Shown one piece after another: positions 3,710-37,973 of a stretch of 38,316 nt of DNA. Made by a program: the position numbers and the translations under genes. Position 1 is the first letter of the stretch. Each line of letters starts with the position of its first letter. The stretch spans positions 1 to 38,316 of the forward strand of contig JAICXH010000016.1 of NCBI GenBank assembly GCA_025981645.1, given 5' to 3'. The notes under the pieces were generated by a model, which saw only the letters and a program-made list of their open reading frames with translations, was not told where the DNA came from and searched no databases. This DNA comes from Burkholderiales bacterium (GTDB lineage: Bacteria > Pseudomonadota > Gammaproteobacteria > Burkholderiales > Casimicrobiaceae).

Positions 3710-4732
3710 ATGAAGCATCCCGCAGTGTTCGTGAAAGCATTCGCAATCCTGGCACTGGCCGCAGGAACGGCCACATCGGTCGCTGCCACCGAGGTCAGCA
3801 AGGTCACGCTGGCGAAACAGTACGGCATCGGCTCGCTTACCTTCATCGTCATGGAGAAGCAGAAGCTCTACGAGAAGGCACTTGCCGCTGAGAATATCGG
3901 CCATCCCGTCAGCGTGGAATGGGTGAAGTTCACGGGCGGCGCAATGATGAACGACGCCATCCTGTCCGGGAACCTGAGCTTCGCGCTCGCCGGTGTCGGA
4001 CCGCTCGCGACCATGTGGGCCAAGACGCGGGGCAACCTCGAGGTGATGGGCGTGTGCGCAGCGAACTCGATGCCGATGCTGCTCAACACGCGCAACCCAC
4101 GGGTCAAGACCCTTGCCGACTTCACCGACAAGGACCACATTGCGCTGCCGGGAGTAAAGGTTTCGATTCAGGCCATCTTGCTGGAAATGGCTGCCGCGAA
4201 AGCGTTCGGGGAGGCCAATTTCGCGAGGCTCGATCCCTTGACCGTGACGCTTTCTCACGCCGACGGCATGGTCGAGCTGCTCTCGCCGACGGCACCTGTC
4301 GACAGTCACTTCACCTCGCCGCCCTATACCTACCTGGAGCTCGAGCACTCGGGAGTCCACACCGTGCTCAACAGCTATCAGATCCTGGGCGGCCCGGGCA
4401 CTCTGAACGTCGTCTACACCACGAGCAAGTTTCGCTCGGAGAATCCGAAGGTCTACGCAGCGTTCCTGAAGGCGTTTGCCGAGGCGACGGATTTCATCAA
4501 CCATCACAAGGATCAGGCGGCCGATATCTATCTCGAGATCTCGAAGGACAAGTCGGTCACGAAAGCGCAGCTTCTGGAGATTCTGAACAATCCCGATATC
4601 CGCTTCACGATGGCGCCCGAGCGGACCATGCAAGTGGTGACATTCATGCACAAGACCGGACGCCTCAAAGCAGCCCCCGGCACCTGGAAGGACATGTTCT
4701 TTCCCGAGATTCACAACCTTTCCGGAAGCTGA
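3710..4732 (+). CDS. ABC transporter substrate-binding protein, NMT1/SsuA-like (orphan)
   Basis: 340 residues. The start at 3710 is set by a strong GGAGG five bases upstream and by the signal peptide that follows (MKHPAVFVKAFAILALAAGT, cleavage near SVAATEV). The mature protein has the periplasmic-binding fold of the NMT1/TauA/SsuA group: VTLAKQYGIGSLTFIVMEKQ at the N-terminus, VEWVKFTGGAMMNDAILSG, then ALAGVGPLATMWAK and TKVST-like TSKFRSENPKVYAAFLKAF. Members bind sulfonates, nitrate, thiamine precursors or aromatic acids. No permease or ATPase gene is nearby; the following 338 bases hold none. Either it serves a transporter elsewhere or its partner genes have been lost, which would fit the decay seen in this region. 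Ligand unknown. Confidence 0.85.
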   Translation: MKHPAVFVKAFAILALAAGTATSVAATEVSKVTLAKQYGIGSLTFIVMEKQKLYEKALAAENIGHPVSVEWVKFTGGAMMNDAILSGNLSFALAGVGPLATMWAKTRGNLEVMGVCAANSMPMLLNTRNPRVKTLADFTDKDHIALPGVKVSIQAILLEMAAAKAFGEANFARLDPLTVTLSHADGMVELLSPTAPVDSHFTSPPYTYLELEHSGVHTVLNSYQILGGPGTLNVVYTTSKFRSENPKVYAAFLKAFAEATDFINHHKDQAADIYLEISKDKSVTKAQLLEILNNPDIRFTMAPERTMQVVTFMHKTGRLKAAPGTWKDMFFPEIHNLSGS

Positions 4733-32588: not shown

Positions 32589-33566
32589 ATGGATTTCGCC
32601 TTCATTCTCGATCCGCTGCCGCAGATCAAGGCCTACAAGGACAGCACGGTCGCGATGATGCGCTCGCTCGCTGCACGCGGCCATCATGTGCACGCCCTCG
32701 AGCAGCACGACCTCTACTGGCGCGACGGCGAGACGCGCGCGTCGGCGCGGTCGCTGACGCTCGCTGCCGACGACCACGCCTGGTATGCGGAGGGCGAGCC
32801 CGCCGACCGCTCGCTCACCGGCTTCGACGCGGTGCTGATGCGCAAGGACCCGCCGTTCGACATGGAGTACGTCTACTCGACCTATCTCCTCGAAGTGGCC
32901 GAGGCGGCCGGGGTACGCGTGTTCAACCGGCCGCAGGCGCTGCGCGACTATAACGAGAAGATGTCGATCGCGCGCTTTCGCGAGTTCGCGCCGCCGTCGC
33001 TCGTCGCGCGCGACGCGCGGCTCATCGACGCGTTCATCGACGAGCACCGGGACGTCATCGTGAAGCCGCTCGACGGTATGGGCGGCACGTCGGTGTTTCG
33101 TGTGCGGCACGACGACCCGAATCGCAACGTGATCGTCGAGACGGTGTCGCAACTCGGCACGCGCTCGGTGATGGCACAGCGTTTCATCCCGGAGATCGTC
33201 GATGGCGACAAGCGCATCCTGCTGGTCGCCGGCCGGGTGGTGCCGTACTCGCTCGCTCGCATTCCGCGTCCCGGCGAGACGCGTGGCAACCTCGCCGCCG
33301 GCGGGCGCGGCGTCGCGCTGCCACTGTCGCCGCGCGACCGGGAAATCGGCGAAGCGCTGGCCGGGCCGCTGTGGGCGGACGGCATGCTCGTCGCCGGGAT
33401 CGACGTCATCGGCGCGTATCTGACCGAGATCAATGTCACGAGTCCGACCTGTTTCGTCGAGATCACCGAGCAGTCGGGTTTCGACGTCGGCGCACTCTTC
33501 GCCGATGCGCTGATCGGCGCGTGCGGGGTCCGCACGGGTGGGTCTCGCGCAGGCGCGGATCTGTAA
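32589..33566 (+). CDS. gshB: Glutathione synthase
   Basis: 325 residues. It joins gamma-glutamylcysteine and glycine with ATP in the last step of glutathione synthesis, in the cytoplasm. Landmarks are the N-terminal MDFAFILDPLPQIKAYKDST, MRKDPPFDMEYVYSTYLLE, NRPQALRDYNEKMSIARF, and the ATP-grasp core DVIVKPLDGMGGTSVFRV, PEIVDGDKRILLVAGRVVPY, and GIDVIGAYLTEINVTSPTCF. The C-terminal tail (VRTGGSRAGADL) is slightly longer than in close relatives. The gene starts the conserved betaproteobacterial order gshB, EIIA, HPr, Enzyme I. It also supplies the cofactor for the GST, MAPEG and persulfide dioxygenase genes at the left end of the window. Confidence 0.96.
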   Translation: MDFAFILDPLPQIKAYKDSTVAMMRSLAARGHHVHALEQHDLYWRDGETRASARSLTLAADDHAWYAEGEPADRSLTGFDAVLMRKDPPFDMEYVYSTYLLEVAEAAGVRVFNRPQALRDYNEKMSIARFREFAPPSLVARDARLIDAFIDEHRDVIVKPLDGMGGTSVFRVRHDDPNRNVIVETVSQLGTRSVMAQRFIPEIVDGDKRILLVAGRVVPYSLARIPRPGETRGNLAAGGRGVALPLSPRDREIGEALAGPLWADGMLVAGIDVIGAYLTEINVTSPTCFVEITEQSGFDVGALFADALIGACGVRTGGSRAGADL

Positions 33567-33576
33567 CGCAATCCCC

Positions 33577-33990
33577 GTGATCGGCGTCCTCATCATCGCG
33601 CACGGAGCGCTAGGCAAGAGCCTCGATGACGCCCTTGCGCACGTGCTCGGCGCAGCGCCGGCGCAGTTCGCCGTCATCGAGTTCGCCCCGGGAGACGACC
33701 CGGCGACAGTGCTACCGCAGGCGCGCGCCGCACTCTCCGGGGTCGACACCGGCGACGGCGTGCTCGTGCTCTGCGACCTCTACGGTGCGTCGCCGTGCAA
33801 CCTCGCGTTGAAGCTCGCCGACCCCGGACGCGTCGAGGTCGTCGCCGGCGTCAACCTGCCGATGCTCGTGCGGAGCTTCACCTATCGCGACCGTCCGATG
33901 GACGTCCTGCTGCGCAAAGCCGTCTCGGGGGGCTGCGACGGCGTTGTCCATGTACCGCATCCGGCGCACCATGCAGCGGCGCGAAGTTGA
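33577..33990 (+). CDS. PTS EIIA component, mannose/fructose type
   Basis: 137 residues from the GTG at 33577, where the family begins: VIGVLIIAHGALGKSLDDAL with the phosphorylatable His in AHG (residue 9). An earlier GTG at 33538 would overlap gshB by 29 bases. LVLCDLYGASPCNLALKLAD and VEVVAGVNLPMLVRSFTYRD are also typical of the EIIA-Man fold. No EIIB or EIIC gene is present, so it cannot drive sugar uptake by itself here. In Betaproteobacteria this gene forms a regulatory PTS with HPr and Enzyme I. It overlaps the HPr gene by 20 bases, suggesting coupled translation. Confidence 0.9.
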   Translation: MIGVLIIAHGALGKSLDDALAHVLGAAPAQFAVIEFAPGDDPATVLPQARAALSGVDTGDGVLVLCDLYGASPCNLALKLADPGRVEVVAGVNLPMLVRSFTYRDRPMDVLLRKAVSGGCDGVVHVPHPAHHAAARS

Positions 33991-34240
33991 GATCGTCAAC
34001 AAGCTGGGCCTGCACGCGCGCGCGTCGGCGCGGCTTACCCAGCTCGCCGCGCGCTACCAGAGCGACGTCTCGATCGCGCGCAACGGGCGCAGCGTCAACG
34101 CCAAGAGCATCATGGGCGTGATGATGCTGGCGGCGGGAAAGGGCTCGAAGGTGACGCTCGAGATCGACGGCCCGGACGAGTCCGAGGCGATGGACGCCGT
34201 GTGCGCGCTGATCGCCGACTGTTTCGGCGAAGGCCGGTGA
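33971..34240 (+). CDS. ptsH: Phosphocarrier protein HPr
   Basis: 89 residues from the ATG at 33971 (MQRREVEIVNKLGLHARASA). With this start the numbering is canonical: phosphorylatable His15 in LHARA and Ser46 in NAKSIMGVMML, the residue that HPr kinase/phosphorylase modifies. It carries phosphate from Enzyme I to EIIA proteins in the cytoplasm. The conserved Ser46 context suggests HprK regulation, as in other Betaproteobacteria where hprK lies elsewhere with the rpoN region. An upstream TTG at 33944 is possible but breaks the numbering. Stop is 19 bases before the Enzyme I gene. Confidence 0.95.
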   Translation: MQRREVEIVNKLGLHARASARLTQLAARYQSDVSIARNGRSVNAKSIMGVMMLAAGKGSKVTLEIDGPDESEAMDAVCALIADCFGEGR

Positions 34241-34259
34241 AGGAAGGGCCGGCTGCCGC

Positions 34260-35996
34260 ATGGTGAGCTTCGCACTGCATGGCGTCGGCGTGTCGGGCGG
34301 CATCGCGCTCGGCCGCGCGCAACTCGTGTCGCACGCGACGCTCGAGGTTGCCCACTACACGCTCCTCGCGCACCAGGTGACGGCCGAGATCGACCGCTTT
34401 TCCACCGCCGTCGCCGAGGTCCGGCGCGAACTGGATGGCCTGCGCGACGCATTGAGCGGTGGCGAAGGTCCCAGCGAGTTTGGCGCCTTCCTCGACGTCC
34501 ACTCGATGATCCTCAACGATCCGACGCTCGCCGAAGCGCCGAAGCAGATCATCGCCGACAAGCGCTGCAACGCGGAGTGGGCGCTTACACTCCAACTGGG
34601 CGTACTGACCGGCCAGTTCGAGCAGATCGACGACGCGTACCTGCGTGAGCGCAAGGCCGACGTCGTGCAGGTCGGCGAGCGCGTGCTGAAGCGGCTGATG
34701 GGGCGGCCGGGCGTGCTGCCGGCCCCGCGCGCCGAGGAGCAGACGATCCTCGTCGCCCACGATCTGTCGCCGGCCGACGTGATCCAGTTCAAGCACCACC
34801 GATATGCGGGCTTCCTGACTGACATAGGTGGCATCACGTCGCATACGGCGATCGTCGCGCGGAGTCTCAACGTGCCGGCGGTCGTCGCGACCCACCACGC
34901 GCGCCAGCTGATCCGCGAAGGCGAGATGCTGATCATCGACGGCGGTCATCACGTCGTCATCGTCAATCCCGACCGCGCGGTGCTGGCCGAATACCGGCTG
35001 CGGCAGGAGGAGATCGGGCTCGCGCGCCAGAAGCTCCGGCGCCTGAAGAGCAAGCCCGCGCAGACGATCGACGGAATCCGCGTCGCGCTCAATGCCAACA
35101 TCGAGCTCCCAGAGGACATCGGGCCCGCGCTCGCGAATGGCGCGGAGGGCGTGGGGCTGTTCCGTTCCGAGTTCCTGTTCCTCAATCGGCCCGAGCTCCC
35201 GGGCGAGGACGAGCAGTTCGAGGCCTTCCGCGAGGTCGCGCGCGGGATGCAGGGCCGCCCGGTGACGATCCGTACCTTCGACCTCGGCGCGGACAAGCAG
35301 CAGGCGGGTCTCGGTGGCTTGACCCGCGTCGCACCGAACCCGGCGCTCGGGCTGCGCGCGGTGCGCTTCTGCCTCGCCGAACCTCGGCTCTTCCTCACCC
35401 AGCTCCGGGCAATCCTCCGCGCAAGCCACTACGGCAACGTACGCATCCTGATCCCGATGCTTGCATCGGCTTCCGAGATCGACCAGACGCTCGCGATCAT
35501 CGCGCGTGCGAAGCAGGGCCTGCATGAGCAGGGCATCCCGTTCAACGCCGATGTCCCCGTCGGCGGCATGATCGAGGTGCCGGCGGCGGTGATCGCGATC
35601 GGAGCGTTCCTGCAGCGGCTCGATTTCCTCTCGGTCGGCACCAACGACCTCATCCAGTACACGCTCGCCGTCGATCGCTCCGACGAGGCGGTGTCGCACC
35701 TCTACGATCCGCTGCACCCGGCAGTGGTCCGGCTCCTTGCGACTGCGATCGGCCGGGCGGCGAAGGCAGGGGTGCCGCTCGCCGTCTGCGGCGAGATGGC
35801 CGGCGAAGAGCTGCTCACGCGATTGCTGCTCGGACTCGGCCTGCGCGACTTCTCGATGCATCCGTCGCACCTGCTTCACGTGAAGCAGCGCGTGCTGCAG
35901 ACCGACGTCGCGGCGAGCGCGGCGATCGTCGAGCGTATCCGCCGCGCCGACGAACCGGAGCGGATCGCCGAACTCCTCGTGCGATTGAACGCTTAG
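34260..35996 (+). CDS. ptsI: PTS Enzyme I (phosphoenolpyruvate-protein phosphotransferase)
   Basis: 578 residues, standard length. It takes phosphate from PEP onto His195 (in IGGITSHTAIVARS; E. coli His189) and passes it to HPr. The HPr-binding helical domain follows the N-terminal GVGVSGGIALGRAQL. The C-terminal PEP-binding TIM barrel has NGAEGVGLFRSEFLFLNRPE, RTFDLGADKQ, PVGGMIEVPAAVI, DFLSVGTNDLIQYTLAVDRS, and the active-site Cys/Gly in AVCGEMAGE. No GAF domain is present, so it is the general EI and not EI-Ntr (PtsP). Upstream GGAAGG acts as ribosome site. A hairpin straddles the stop codon. Confidence 0.96.
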   Translation: MVSFALHGVGVSGGIALGRAQLVSHATLEVAHYTLLAHQVTAEIDRFSTAVAEVRRELDGLRDALSGGEGPSEFGAFLDVHSMILNDPTLAEAPKQIIADKRCNAEWALTLQLGVLTGQFEQIDDAYLRERKADVVQVGERVLKRLMGRPGVLPAPRAEEQTILVAHDLSPADVIQFKHHRYAGFLTDIGGITSHTAIVARSLNVPAVVATHHARQLIREGEMLIIDGGHHVVIVNPDRAVLAEYRLRQEEIGLARQKLRRLKSKPAQTIDGIRVALNANIELPEDIGPALANGAEGVGLFRSEFLFLNRPELPGEDEQFEAFREVARGMQGRPVTIRTFDLGADKQQAGLGGLTRVAPNPALGLRAVRFCLAEPRLFLTQLRAILRASHYGNVRILIPMLASASEIDQTLAIIARAKQGLHEQGIPFNADVPVGGMIEVPAAVIAIGAFLQRLDFLSVGTNDLIQYTLAVDRSDEAVSHLYDPLHPAVVRLLATAIGRAAKAGVPLAVCGEMAGEELLTRLLLGLGLRDFSMHPSHLLHVKQRVLQTDVAASAAIVERIRRADEPERIAELLVRLNA

Positions 35997-36027
35997 CCGA
36001 CGACGCGCGGTTCGCCCGCGATCGGCT
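35995..36027 (+). terminator. Two-part hairpin at the end of ptsI
   Basis: AGCCGA (35995-36000) pairs with TCGGCT (36022-36027), and inside it CGCGG (36006-36010) pairs with CCGCG (36016-36020) across TTCGC. It begins in the ptsI stop codon. There is no T-run, so termination would be weak or Rho-assisted. Its right arm touches the -10 box of the metXW promoter. Confidence 0.35.
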
Positions 36028-36032
36028 ACAAT
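36027..36032 (+). promoter_or_regulatory. Probable -10 element of the metXW promoter
   Basis: TACAAT matches TATAAT at five of six bases. No convincing -35 is seen at the right distance. A start about 7 bases downstream would fall near 36039, exactly where the first riboswitch stem begins, which supports this placement. Confidence 0.45.
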
Positions 36033-36036
36033 GACC

Positions 36037-36104
36037 GCGCGCCGATTTGAACCAGCTTGCGGGCGCACGCCGAATCGCGGCGAACAAATACGGCTAAAGC
36101 GGAG
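36037..36104 (+). promoter_or_regulatory. Candidate SAM-II riboswitch upstream of metXW
   Basis: All parts of the SAM-II (metA/metX-leader) fold can be placed. P1: GCGCC (36039-36043) with GGCGC (36062-36066). Loop 1 begins GATTT (36044-36048) and holds CC (36052-36053), five bases, GC (36059-36060). The 3' strand reads ACAAATACGGCTAAAGCGG: GC (36093-36094), six bases TAAAGC, GG (36101-36102), so the pseudoknot pairs CC-GG and GC-GC fit with the spacing I recall from the SAM-II crystal-structure RNA. Between P1 and this strand lies an extra perfect hairpin CGCCG-AATCG-CGGCG (36068-36082). A GGAG at the 3' edge could be masked when S-adenosylmethionine binds. Homology search was not possible. 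Confidence 0.7.
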
Positions 36105-36127
36105 CGCCTCCTCCTCGGCGGCACACC

Positions 36128-36150
36128 GACCAGGCCCGACGAAGCTGGTC
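36128..36150 (+). promoter_or_regulatory. Hairpin before the metXW ribosome site, candidate expression platform
   Basis: GACCAG (36128-36133) pairs with CTGGTC (36145-36150), two bases before the GGAGAG ribosome site (36152-36157) of metXW. The right arm is also part of AAGCTGGT (36142-36149), an exact complement of ACCAGCTT (36051-36058) in riboswitch loop 1. The two pairings exclude each other, and the loop-1 pairing also excludes the SAM-II pseudoknot. Confidence 0.4.
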
Positions 36151-36167
36151 CGGAGAGTCGTCACCGC

Positions 36168-37973
36168 ATGCCTTCCTTCGCCGAGACCACCGGCGGCGCC
36201 AAGCCCGCGAACGTCGCGAACGCCGGCCGATCGGTCGGAGCCGTCGTCGAGCAGCGAATCACGATCGACGAGCCGCTGCCGCTCGCCTGCGGGCGCAGCC
36301 TCGCGACCTACGAGCTCGCCTACGAAACGTATGGACGACTGAACGACGACCGCTCGAACGCGGTCCTCGTCTGCCACGCGCTGAACGCGTCGCACCACGT
36401 TGCCGGCTTCTACGCCGACGATCCCGGCAACGTCGGCTGGTGGGACAACATGATCGGGCCGGGGAAGCCGCTCGACACCGATCGCTTCTATGTCGTCGGC
36501 GTCAACAATCTCGGGAGCTGCTTCGGCTCGACGGGGCCGCTTTCGCTCGACCCGGCAACCGGAAAGCCGTACGGCGCCGACTTCCCGCTCATCACCGTCG
36601 AGGACTGGGTCGACGCCCAGGCGCAGCTCGCCGATCGTCTCGGCATCGCGCGCTGGGCCGCGGTGATGGGCGGAAGCCTTGGCGGCATGCAGGCGCTCGA
36701 CTGGGGGATCCGTTATCCCGGCCGCATCGCCACTGCGCTCGTCATCGCAGCCGCACCGAGCCTGTCGGCCGAGAACATCGCTTTCAACGAGGTCGCGCGC
36801 CAGGCGATCATGACCGACCCGGATTTCCACGGGGGCCGCTTCGGCGAGCTCGGCGAGAAGCCGCGGCGGGGCCTTCGCGTCGCGCGGATGATCGGCCACA
36901 TCACCTATCTCTCCGATACCCAGATGGAGGCCCGGTTCGGACGCCAGCTCCGCGACGGGCTGCGCTACTCGTTCGCGCCCGAGTTCCAGATCGAGTCGTA
37001 TCTGCGTCACCAGGGCGAGAAATTCGCCGACTACTTCGACGCGAACACCTATCTTCGGATCACCAAGGCGCTCGATTACTTCGATCCCGCGCTGCGCCAT
37101 GGTGGTGACCTCGCGGCGGCACTTGCCTCGGCGACCTGCCGATTCCTCGTCGTGTCGTTCGCGACCGACTGGCGCTTCCCGGTCGCGCGCTCGCGCGAGA
37201 TCGTCAAGGCGCTGGTGAAGAGCCGGCGCGACGTCGCGAGCGTCGAGATCGACGCGCCGCACGGTCACGACGCGTTTCTGCTCGACGACCCGCGGTACCA
37301 CTCGGTCGTGCGCGCGTGGTTCGATCGCATCGCCGCGACCCTGGAGCGTGGCAATGCGACCGGCTCGGCGCCGGCGGCCTGGACGCCGCGAGCCCCCCGC
37401 GCCGACTGGGCGACGATCGGCGGCTGGGTGCCGCAGCGCGCACACGTGCTCGACCTCGGCTGCGGTGATGGCGGCCTCCTCGCGTTTCTCGCCACGACGC
37501 GCGAGGCGAGCGGGTACGGCGTCGAGATCGACGACACCGGCGTGCTCGCCGCCGTGCGCAACGGCACCGACGTCGTGCAGAGCGACCTCGAGCGCGGACT
37601 CGCCGGCTTCGACGACGGCGCCTTCGACGTCGTCATTTTGTCGCAGACGCTGCAGGCGATGCGCCGGATCGAGACGATCGTCGCCGAGATGCTTCGCGTC
37701 GGCCGCGAGGCGGTGGTGACGTTCCCGAACTTCGGCTACTGGCGGCACCGGCTGCAGGTCATGCGCGGGCGGATGCCGGTGTCGCCGTCGCTGCCCTACC
37801 AGTGGTACGACACGCCGAACATCCACCTCTGCACGGTCGCCGACTTCGATGCGTTCCTCGGGGCGCGCGGATGTCGCGTGATCGACCGCGTCGTCCTCGC
37901 GCACGGCAAGCGGATCGGCCTCGCGCCGAATCTCGCCGGCGAACTCGCAATCTACCGCTTCAGAAAGGCCTGA
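36168..37973 (+). CDS. metXW: Homoserine O-acyltransferase MetX fused to MetW
   Basis: 601 residues as one chain. Residues about 20-385 are MetX, an alpha/beta hydrolase that acylates homoserine for methionine synthesis: [40 protein letters not shown], nucleophile Ser170 in [13 protein letters not shown], Asp in [12 protein letters not shown], His367 in HGHDAFLL. After a 20-residue Pro/Ala/Arg linker, residues about 405-601 are MetW, a methyltransferase-fold protein: [63 protein letters not shown], and [19 protein letters not shown]. These are normally adjacent, overlapping genes. The start at 36168 has GGAGAG ten bases upstream; upstream codons to 36057 belong to the riboswitch leader. No stop or frameshift lies between the domains. 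Confidence 0.93.

Follow-up and report, generated by a model that had tools for sequence, protein, structure and literature searches.

SAM-II riboswitches (RF00521, SAM_alpha) are a known class, and their occurrence outside the Alphaproteobacteria, the group from which the initial annotation described them as best known, is not new: a Bordetella example appears in Corbino (2005), and Barrick and Breaker (2007) treat both alpha- and betaproteobacterial SAM-II and mention new insertion sites in general terms. A known variant with longer loops, SAM-II long loops (RF01726), is reported from Bacteroidetes and marine sources (PMC2864571). SAM-V riboswitches (RF01826) carry P3 directly after P1, and P3 is described as absent from SAM-II (PMC6061858). 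A survey (Leyn et al., 2014; PMC4239095) reported SAM_alpha in Rhizobiales and Rhodobacterales only and, in 35 betaproteobacteria, named as new a metXZ element that lies upstream of metXW or metZ. The possibility of a methionine element acting in cis had been raised in the 2012 Burkholderia sRNA study from which RF02424 comes (PMC3521395).

We found that positions 36038–36103 of the window (the whole stretch analysed, 38,316 nucleotides) are a genuine SAM-II aptamer, belonging to this widespread known class but present as a hairpin variant that the standard Rfam model misses (Table 1). The novelty of the variant is modest. Very probably, the leader acts as a SAM-II riboswitch by which abundant S-adenosylmethionine shuts off metX-metW.

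Table 1. Positions of the leader features and of the downstream gene in the window (all on the + strand)
Feature	Position	Basis or remark
-10-like box TACAAT	36027–36032	5/6 matches; ends 5 nt before 36038
SAM-II aptamer	36038–36103	R2 55.7 bits, E 4.3e-12; R1 64.8 bits
P1 5' strand GCGCC	36039–36043	sequence; six P1 columns covary in A3
L1 GATTTGA, expected third strand at the ligand pocket	36044–36050	sequence; role per SAM-II/SAM-V structures
P2 5' strand CCAGCTTGC	36052–36060	pairs with 36093–36102; outer pair covaries
P1 3' strand GGCGC	36062–36066	sequence; covariation
Extra hairpin CGCCG-AATCG-CGGCG, SAM-V P3 position	36068–36082	linker folding; kept in closest relative L006
A-rich tail of L3, AACAAATACG	36083–36092	same tail in compact leaders
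P2 3' strand GCTAAAGCGG	36093–36102	sequence; covariation analysis
Hairpin GACCAG...CTGGTC, terminator-type stem without U-tract	36128–36150	-10.7 kcal/mol for 36126–36154
Segment complementary to aptamer 36052–36064	36134–36148	duplex -24.4 kcal/mol; 8-nt exact match, shuffle p 0.03
Shine-Dalgarno-like GGAGAG	36152–36157	sequence; 10 nt from last base to ATG
metX-metW fusion gene	36168–37973	Pfam: alpha/beta hydrolase residues 64–373, MetW residues 411–597

A SAM-II aptamer with a hairpin in L3

All of the SAM-II landmarks named in the initial annotation (P1, GATTT, CC-N5-GC and GC-N6-GG) could be located in that order: GATTT at 36044–36048, CC-N5-GC at 36052–36060 and, within ACAAATACGGCTAAAGCGG (36084–36102), GC at 36093–36094 and GG at 36101–36102. 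P1 has five pairs, the next pair outward (C36038/A36067) not being formed, and P2a has two (C36052-G36102 and C36053-G36101). Both sets of SAM-II core letters, GATTT and GCTAAA, are present. The SAM-II identity proposed for 36037–36104 is borne out by this conserved core, by covariation of P1 and the outer P2 pair in relatives, by the methionine gene downstream and by the occurrence of the element throughout the order; 36038–36103 is best read as a SAM-II aptamer that bears an additional hairpin. As such, it would be expected to bind SAM and not SAH.

Alignment A3, which comprises 84 distinct rows, contains changes on both sides in all six P1 pairs and in the outer P2 pair, although the outermost P1 pair is unpaired in 22 rows and the outer P2 pair in 20. 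Seven pairs changed on both sides compared with 2.9 in shuffles, and 69 cells carried such changes compared with 23.6; none of 500 shuffles was as high. Shifting the pairing partners lowered the paired fraction from 95.8% to 26–55%, and in alignment A2 96.8% of cells are paired. The five inner P2 pairs never varied and could not have done so, because the search pattern fixed GATTTGA, CAGCTTGCGG and GCTAAAGCG and with them most of the inner P2 letters. Compensatory change in homologous leaders, which had been put forward as a check on both P1 and the extra stem, is seen in P1 but not in the stem, since near relatives retain the letters of the window's own hairpin and no covariation is demonstrable inside it.

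The suggested comparison with the Rfam SAM-II model went the other way: RF00521 scored the element at 14.5 bits, below the gathering cut-off of 36, and aligned the P1 half alone. No Rfam family matched at its cut-off anywhere in the 38-kb window. A search of the whole genome with RF00521, at E up to 10, returned four weak matches (E 0.49–6.6), none of them at 36038–36103; as every one of the 14 control genomes also gave matches, these carry no meaning. That the element falls short of the RF00521 cut-off is probably due to its lengthened L3, since among the 36 loci scanned the model was passed by 8 of 11 compact relatives and by none of the 25 with a lengthened L3 (6/8 and 0/12 in the 20 scanned from loci L005–L034; 2/3 and 0/13 in 16 further public loci). 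The limit therefore likely lies with RF00521 and not with the aptamer core. Two covariance models of our own recover the element. R1 was built from 28 leaders, the window's included, and its score of 64.8 bits is that of a model containing the sequence. R2 was built from 91 matches in 80 public genome loci, none of them, going by titles, from the window's assembly, whose records may be absent from the collection searched; it is independent by its sequences but not by origin, as the search pattern was written from leaders of the window's genus. R2 gave 55.7 bits (E 4.3e-12) against 9.3 bits for the second-best match in the window.

The extra 5-bp hairpin between P1 and the 3' strand, which the earlier reading took to make this leader a variant, is real. 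The L3 linker is 12 nt long in 106 of 155 parsed aptamers, and all 74 distinct linkers of this compact form have A at positions 4, 6 and 7 (counted without L034 and the Burkholderia group). Among 26 distinct linkers of at least 15 nt, 24 fold into a hairpin as the window's does, all starting 0–2 nt after P1 and leaving 6–13 nt before GCTAAA; the two that do not are L085, wrongly cut by the parsing expression, and L103, a second tandem aptamer. The tails that follow the hairpins are mostly A-rich, though not in the second aptamer of either L053 or L147. For the 20 linkers of at least 20 nt the mean z was -2.23, with p ≤0.05 in 12 and a Fisher p of 5e-13. Taken alone, the window hairpin (-8.2 kcal/mol) is borderline against shuffles (p 0.037 and 0.056 in two runs) and that of L034 is not significant (p 0.39), while single-strand folding of the 140-nt leader gave a structure no more stable than shuffles (z 0.20).

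Relation to SAM-V, the metXZ element and RF02424

With RF00521 the leader shares P1, GATTT, the pseudoknot P2, an A-rich L3 and a position before methionine genes; it differs in its lengthened, hairpin-bearing L3, its score below the Rfam cut-off and the lack of a U-tract. With SAM-V it has in common a hairpin right after P1 followed by an A stretch, a 2-bp P2a and probable control at the ribosome site, but where SAM-V has three base pairs in P3 and four in P1, the window has five and five. The hairpin departs from the SAM-II trait of having no P3, as given in PMC6061858. We treat this trait as peripheral because compact and hairpin forms mix within one genus. No P3 or hairpin insertion in SAM-II was found described in the literature searched, chiefly the text of openly available papers. 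Run against the window's genome with E up to 10, the SAM-II long loops model (RF01726) gave no match.

Two published labels appear to cover the same kind of leader. The metXZ element, presented by its authors as novel and distinct from SAM_alpha, has a SAM-II-like pseudoknot of regions 1–4 and 2–6, a conserved region 3, a terminator and a proposed antiterminator; we liken it to SAM-II from the text description in PMC4239095, not letter by letter. Leyn et al. (2014) was the sole source of the term in the literature searched. RF02424 (Bp2_287) matches all six Burkholderia and Paraburkholderia loci (L120, L127, L110, L115, L145 and L086) at 101.6–158.4 bits. It covers the same leaders but is modelled on the strand opposite the SAM-II match; the family apparently represents SAM-II leaders, terminator included, in reverse orientation. 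On the window it reached 11.1 bits on the minus strand, below its cut-off of 70. It weakly matched 22 of 41 relatives, none above the cut-off, gave no match in the window's own genome and matched one control genome; its name was not found in any paper text in the literature searched. We infer that the metXZ element and RF02424 are both SAM-II. SAM-II is common across the order yet partly concealed: the standard model misses leaders whose L3 is longer, a seemingly identical element was named as new in one survey, and the strand on which one Rfam family is modelled seems to be the wrong one.

Expression platform and proposed mechanism

Among 151 distinct leaders, 56 have a -10-like site placed 3–9 nt ahead of P1, compared with 7.8% of shuffles. 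The initial annotation had the leader begin at the predicted transcript start; the TACAAT box 5 nt before 36038 agrees with this, but a simple sigma-70 scan found no full promoter match at the window's leader, and for that reason the start point is only a predicted one. Further downstream, the complement of L1 in the window, AAGCTGGT (shuffle p 0.03), has no T-run and is followed by GGAGAG and the ATG. Many relatives have a stem whose 3' arm repeats the L1 complement and then a T-run, and relatives carry a U-tract after the stem matching 36128–36150. The L1 complement reaches shuffle p ≤0.05 in 26 of 140 leaders (the other 114 lie above 0.05), and in 19 of these 26 the stretch is within 15 nt of a T-run.

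Forcing the aptamer in folding, with P2 merely imitated by blocking bases, lowered the unpaired probability of GG at 36152–36153 from 0.28–0.31 to 0.02, and access to the ATG was 0.57, 0.43 and 0.18 compared with 0.71, 0.87 and 0.28 without it. The model is mixed, as A36156 was unchanged (0.56) and G36157 was more open with the aptamer (0.33 compared with 0.21). With low certainty, we consider ribosome-site control likelier than termination; for SAM-II, platforms of mixed transcriptional and translational type have been reported (PMC9481103, PMC9373788).

In the mechanism that we propose, binding of SAM would close pseudoknot P2 over P1, and the extra hairpin may stack off the foot of P1, like P3 in SAM-V, leaving the A-rich strand free to run along P1. 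Without SAM, aptamer positions 36052–36064 would be able to pair with 36134–36148. With SAM, the latter segment would be freed and the hairpin at 36128–36150, a terminator in relatives, could form. Given that the U-tract is gone and that GGAGAG follows the stem, in the window this hairpin most likely reduces access to the ribosome site and does not terminate transcription.

The same aptamer could instead act on transcription, with the hairpin at 36128–36150, although it lacks a U-tract, or Rho stopping synthesis when SAM is bound. The U-tract behind the matching stem of relatives fits this, as does the statement that alpha- and betaproteobacterial SAM-II is most commonly associated with terminators (Barrick and Breaker, 2007), but no T-run follows the switching stem in either the window or L006 and a terminator scan of the window found none, so that we regard this output as possible but doubtful. 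Loss of the U-tract in both leaders might also mean that the platform has decayed, the aptamer perhaps still binding SAM while control of metX is lost; by eye, the AAGCTGG stem is missing in several members of the genus, such as L010, L012 and L013. Such decay is improbable in our view: the window and L006, with 87% identity in the MetX region, still share the core, the hairpin and the switching complement.

Whether a translational switch of the kind proposed makes use of the extra hairpin is a separate matter, and we give even chances to its being a neutral insertion with no effect. On a tree of metX leaders (40 picked, 39 used), hairpin and compact forms exchange about five times (5–6 in bootstraps), at least two changes being forced by well-supported branches; moreover, the hairpin sequence is unrelated between lineages and hairpin-free metX leaders occur in the window's genus as well. 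Such a history suits a neutral insertion, but one exact position is kept and the A-rich tail is spared. The P3 position and the 2-bp P2a are SAM-V-like and might point to a SAM-V riboswitch, or to a class with a different ligand. This we consider very improbable, given that RF01826 had no match in the genome at E up to 10, that the leader retains the SAM-II core letters and that RF00521 recognises compact relatives. Within a SAM-II assignment, a more speculative and rather unlikely idea is that P3 is not exclusive to SAM-V, betaproteobacterial and Legionellales SAM-II having gained it at the same joint several times, and that the window, with its P3, 2-bp P2a, missing U-tract and ribosome site adjoining the switching hairpin, is a SAM-II in transition towards a translational switch resembling SAM-V. 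Should one joint of SAM-II accept an added P3, inserting or deleting the hairpin would offer a test of where the two classes divide.

Distribution and gene context

The leader stands before a methionine gene, as first noted: this is the metX-metW fusion that begins with the ATG at 36168, which we presume to be metX by homology. The MetX-MetW protein was matched in 41 of 41 genomes searched, and the leaders before these genes in relatives share the aptamer core. The R1 element was found in 20 of the 22 genomes of the window's genus; at the level of the order, 289 of the 399 genomes sampled and 129 of 158 genera carry it. A pattern scan of public genomes returned at least 119 stretches, of which 80 were taken as loci, from beta-, alpha- and gammaproteobacteria by their titles. 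SAM-II-type leaders stand before metX, metY/metZ-like and metH genes.

Several further observations were made. metX and metW lie in one open frame in the window, and most members of the genus give one continuous match across the two genes, whereas others give two matches. Upstream, at 32589–35996, Pfam identifies a glutathione synthetase, a PTS EIIA-man domain and a PEP-utilising enzyme of the PTS enzyme I type. The metH-type leaders of the genus (L222–L225; MetH domain confirmed for L224 only) have an extra hairpin in L1, not in L3. Tandem SAM-II aptamers 57–115 nt apart occur at 12 loci (L053, L061, L065, L079, L090, L103, L125, L126, L128, L140, L147 and L150), the second often with an altered core, GAGTTAA or GATTTAA; tandem SAM-II is already known, with 44 examples in PMC9481103. 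At L044 (1541–1594), SAM-II precedes a gene that by eye resembles threonine ammonia-lyase. Finally, in a Legionellaceae MAG (L083) a SAM-II aptamer is preceded, at a distance of about 80 nt, by a TwoAYGGAY RNA (3927–4070; RF01731, 51.7 bits, cut-off 43).
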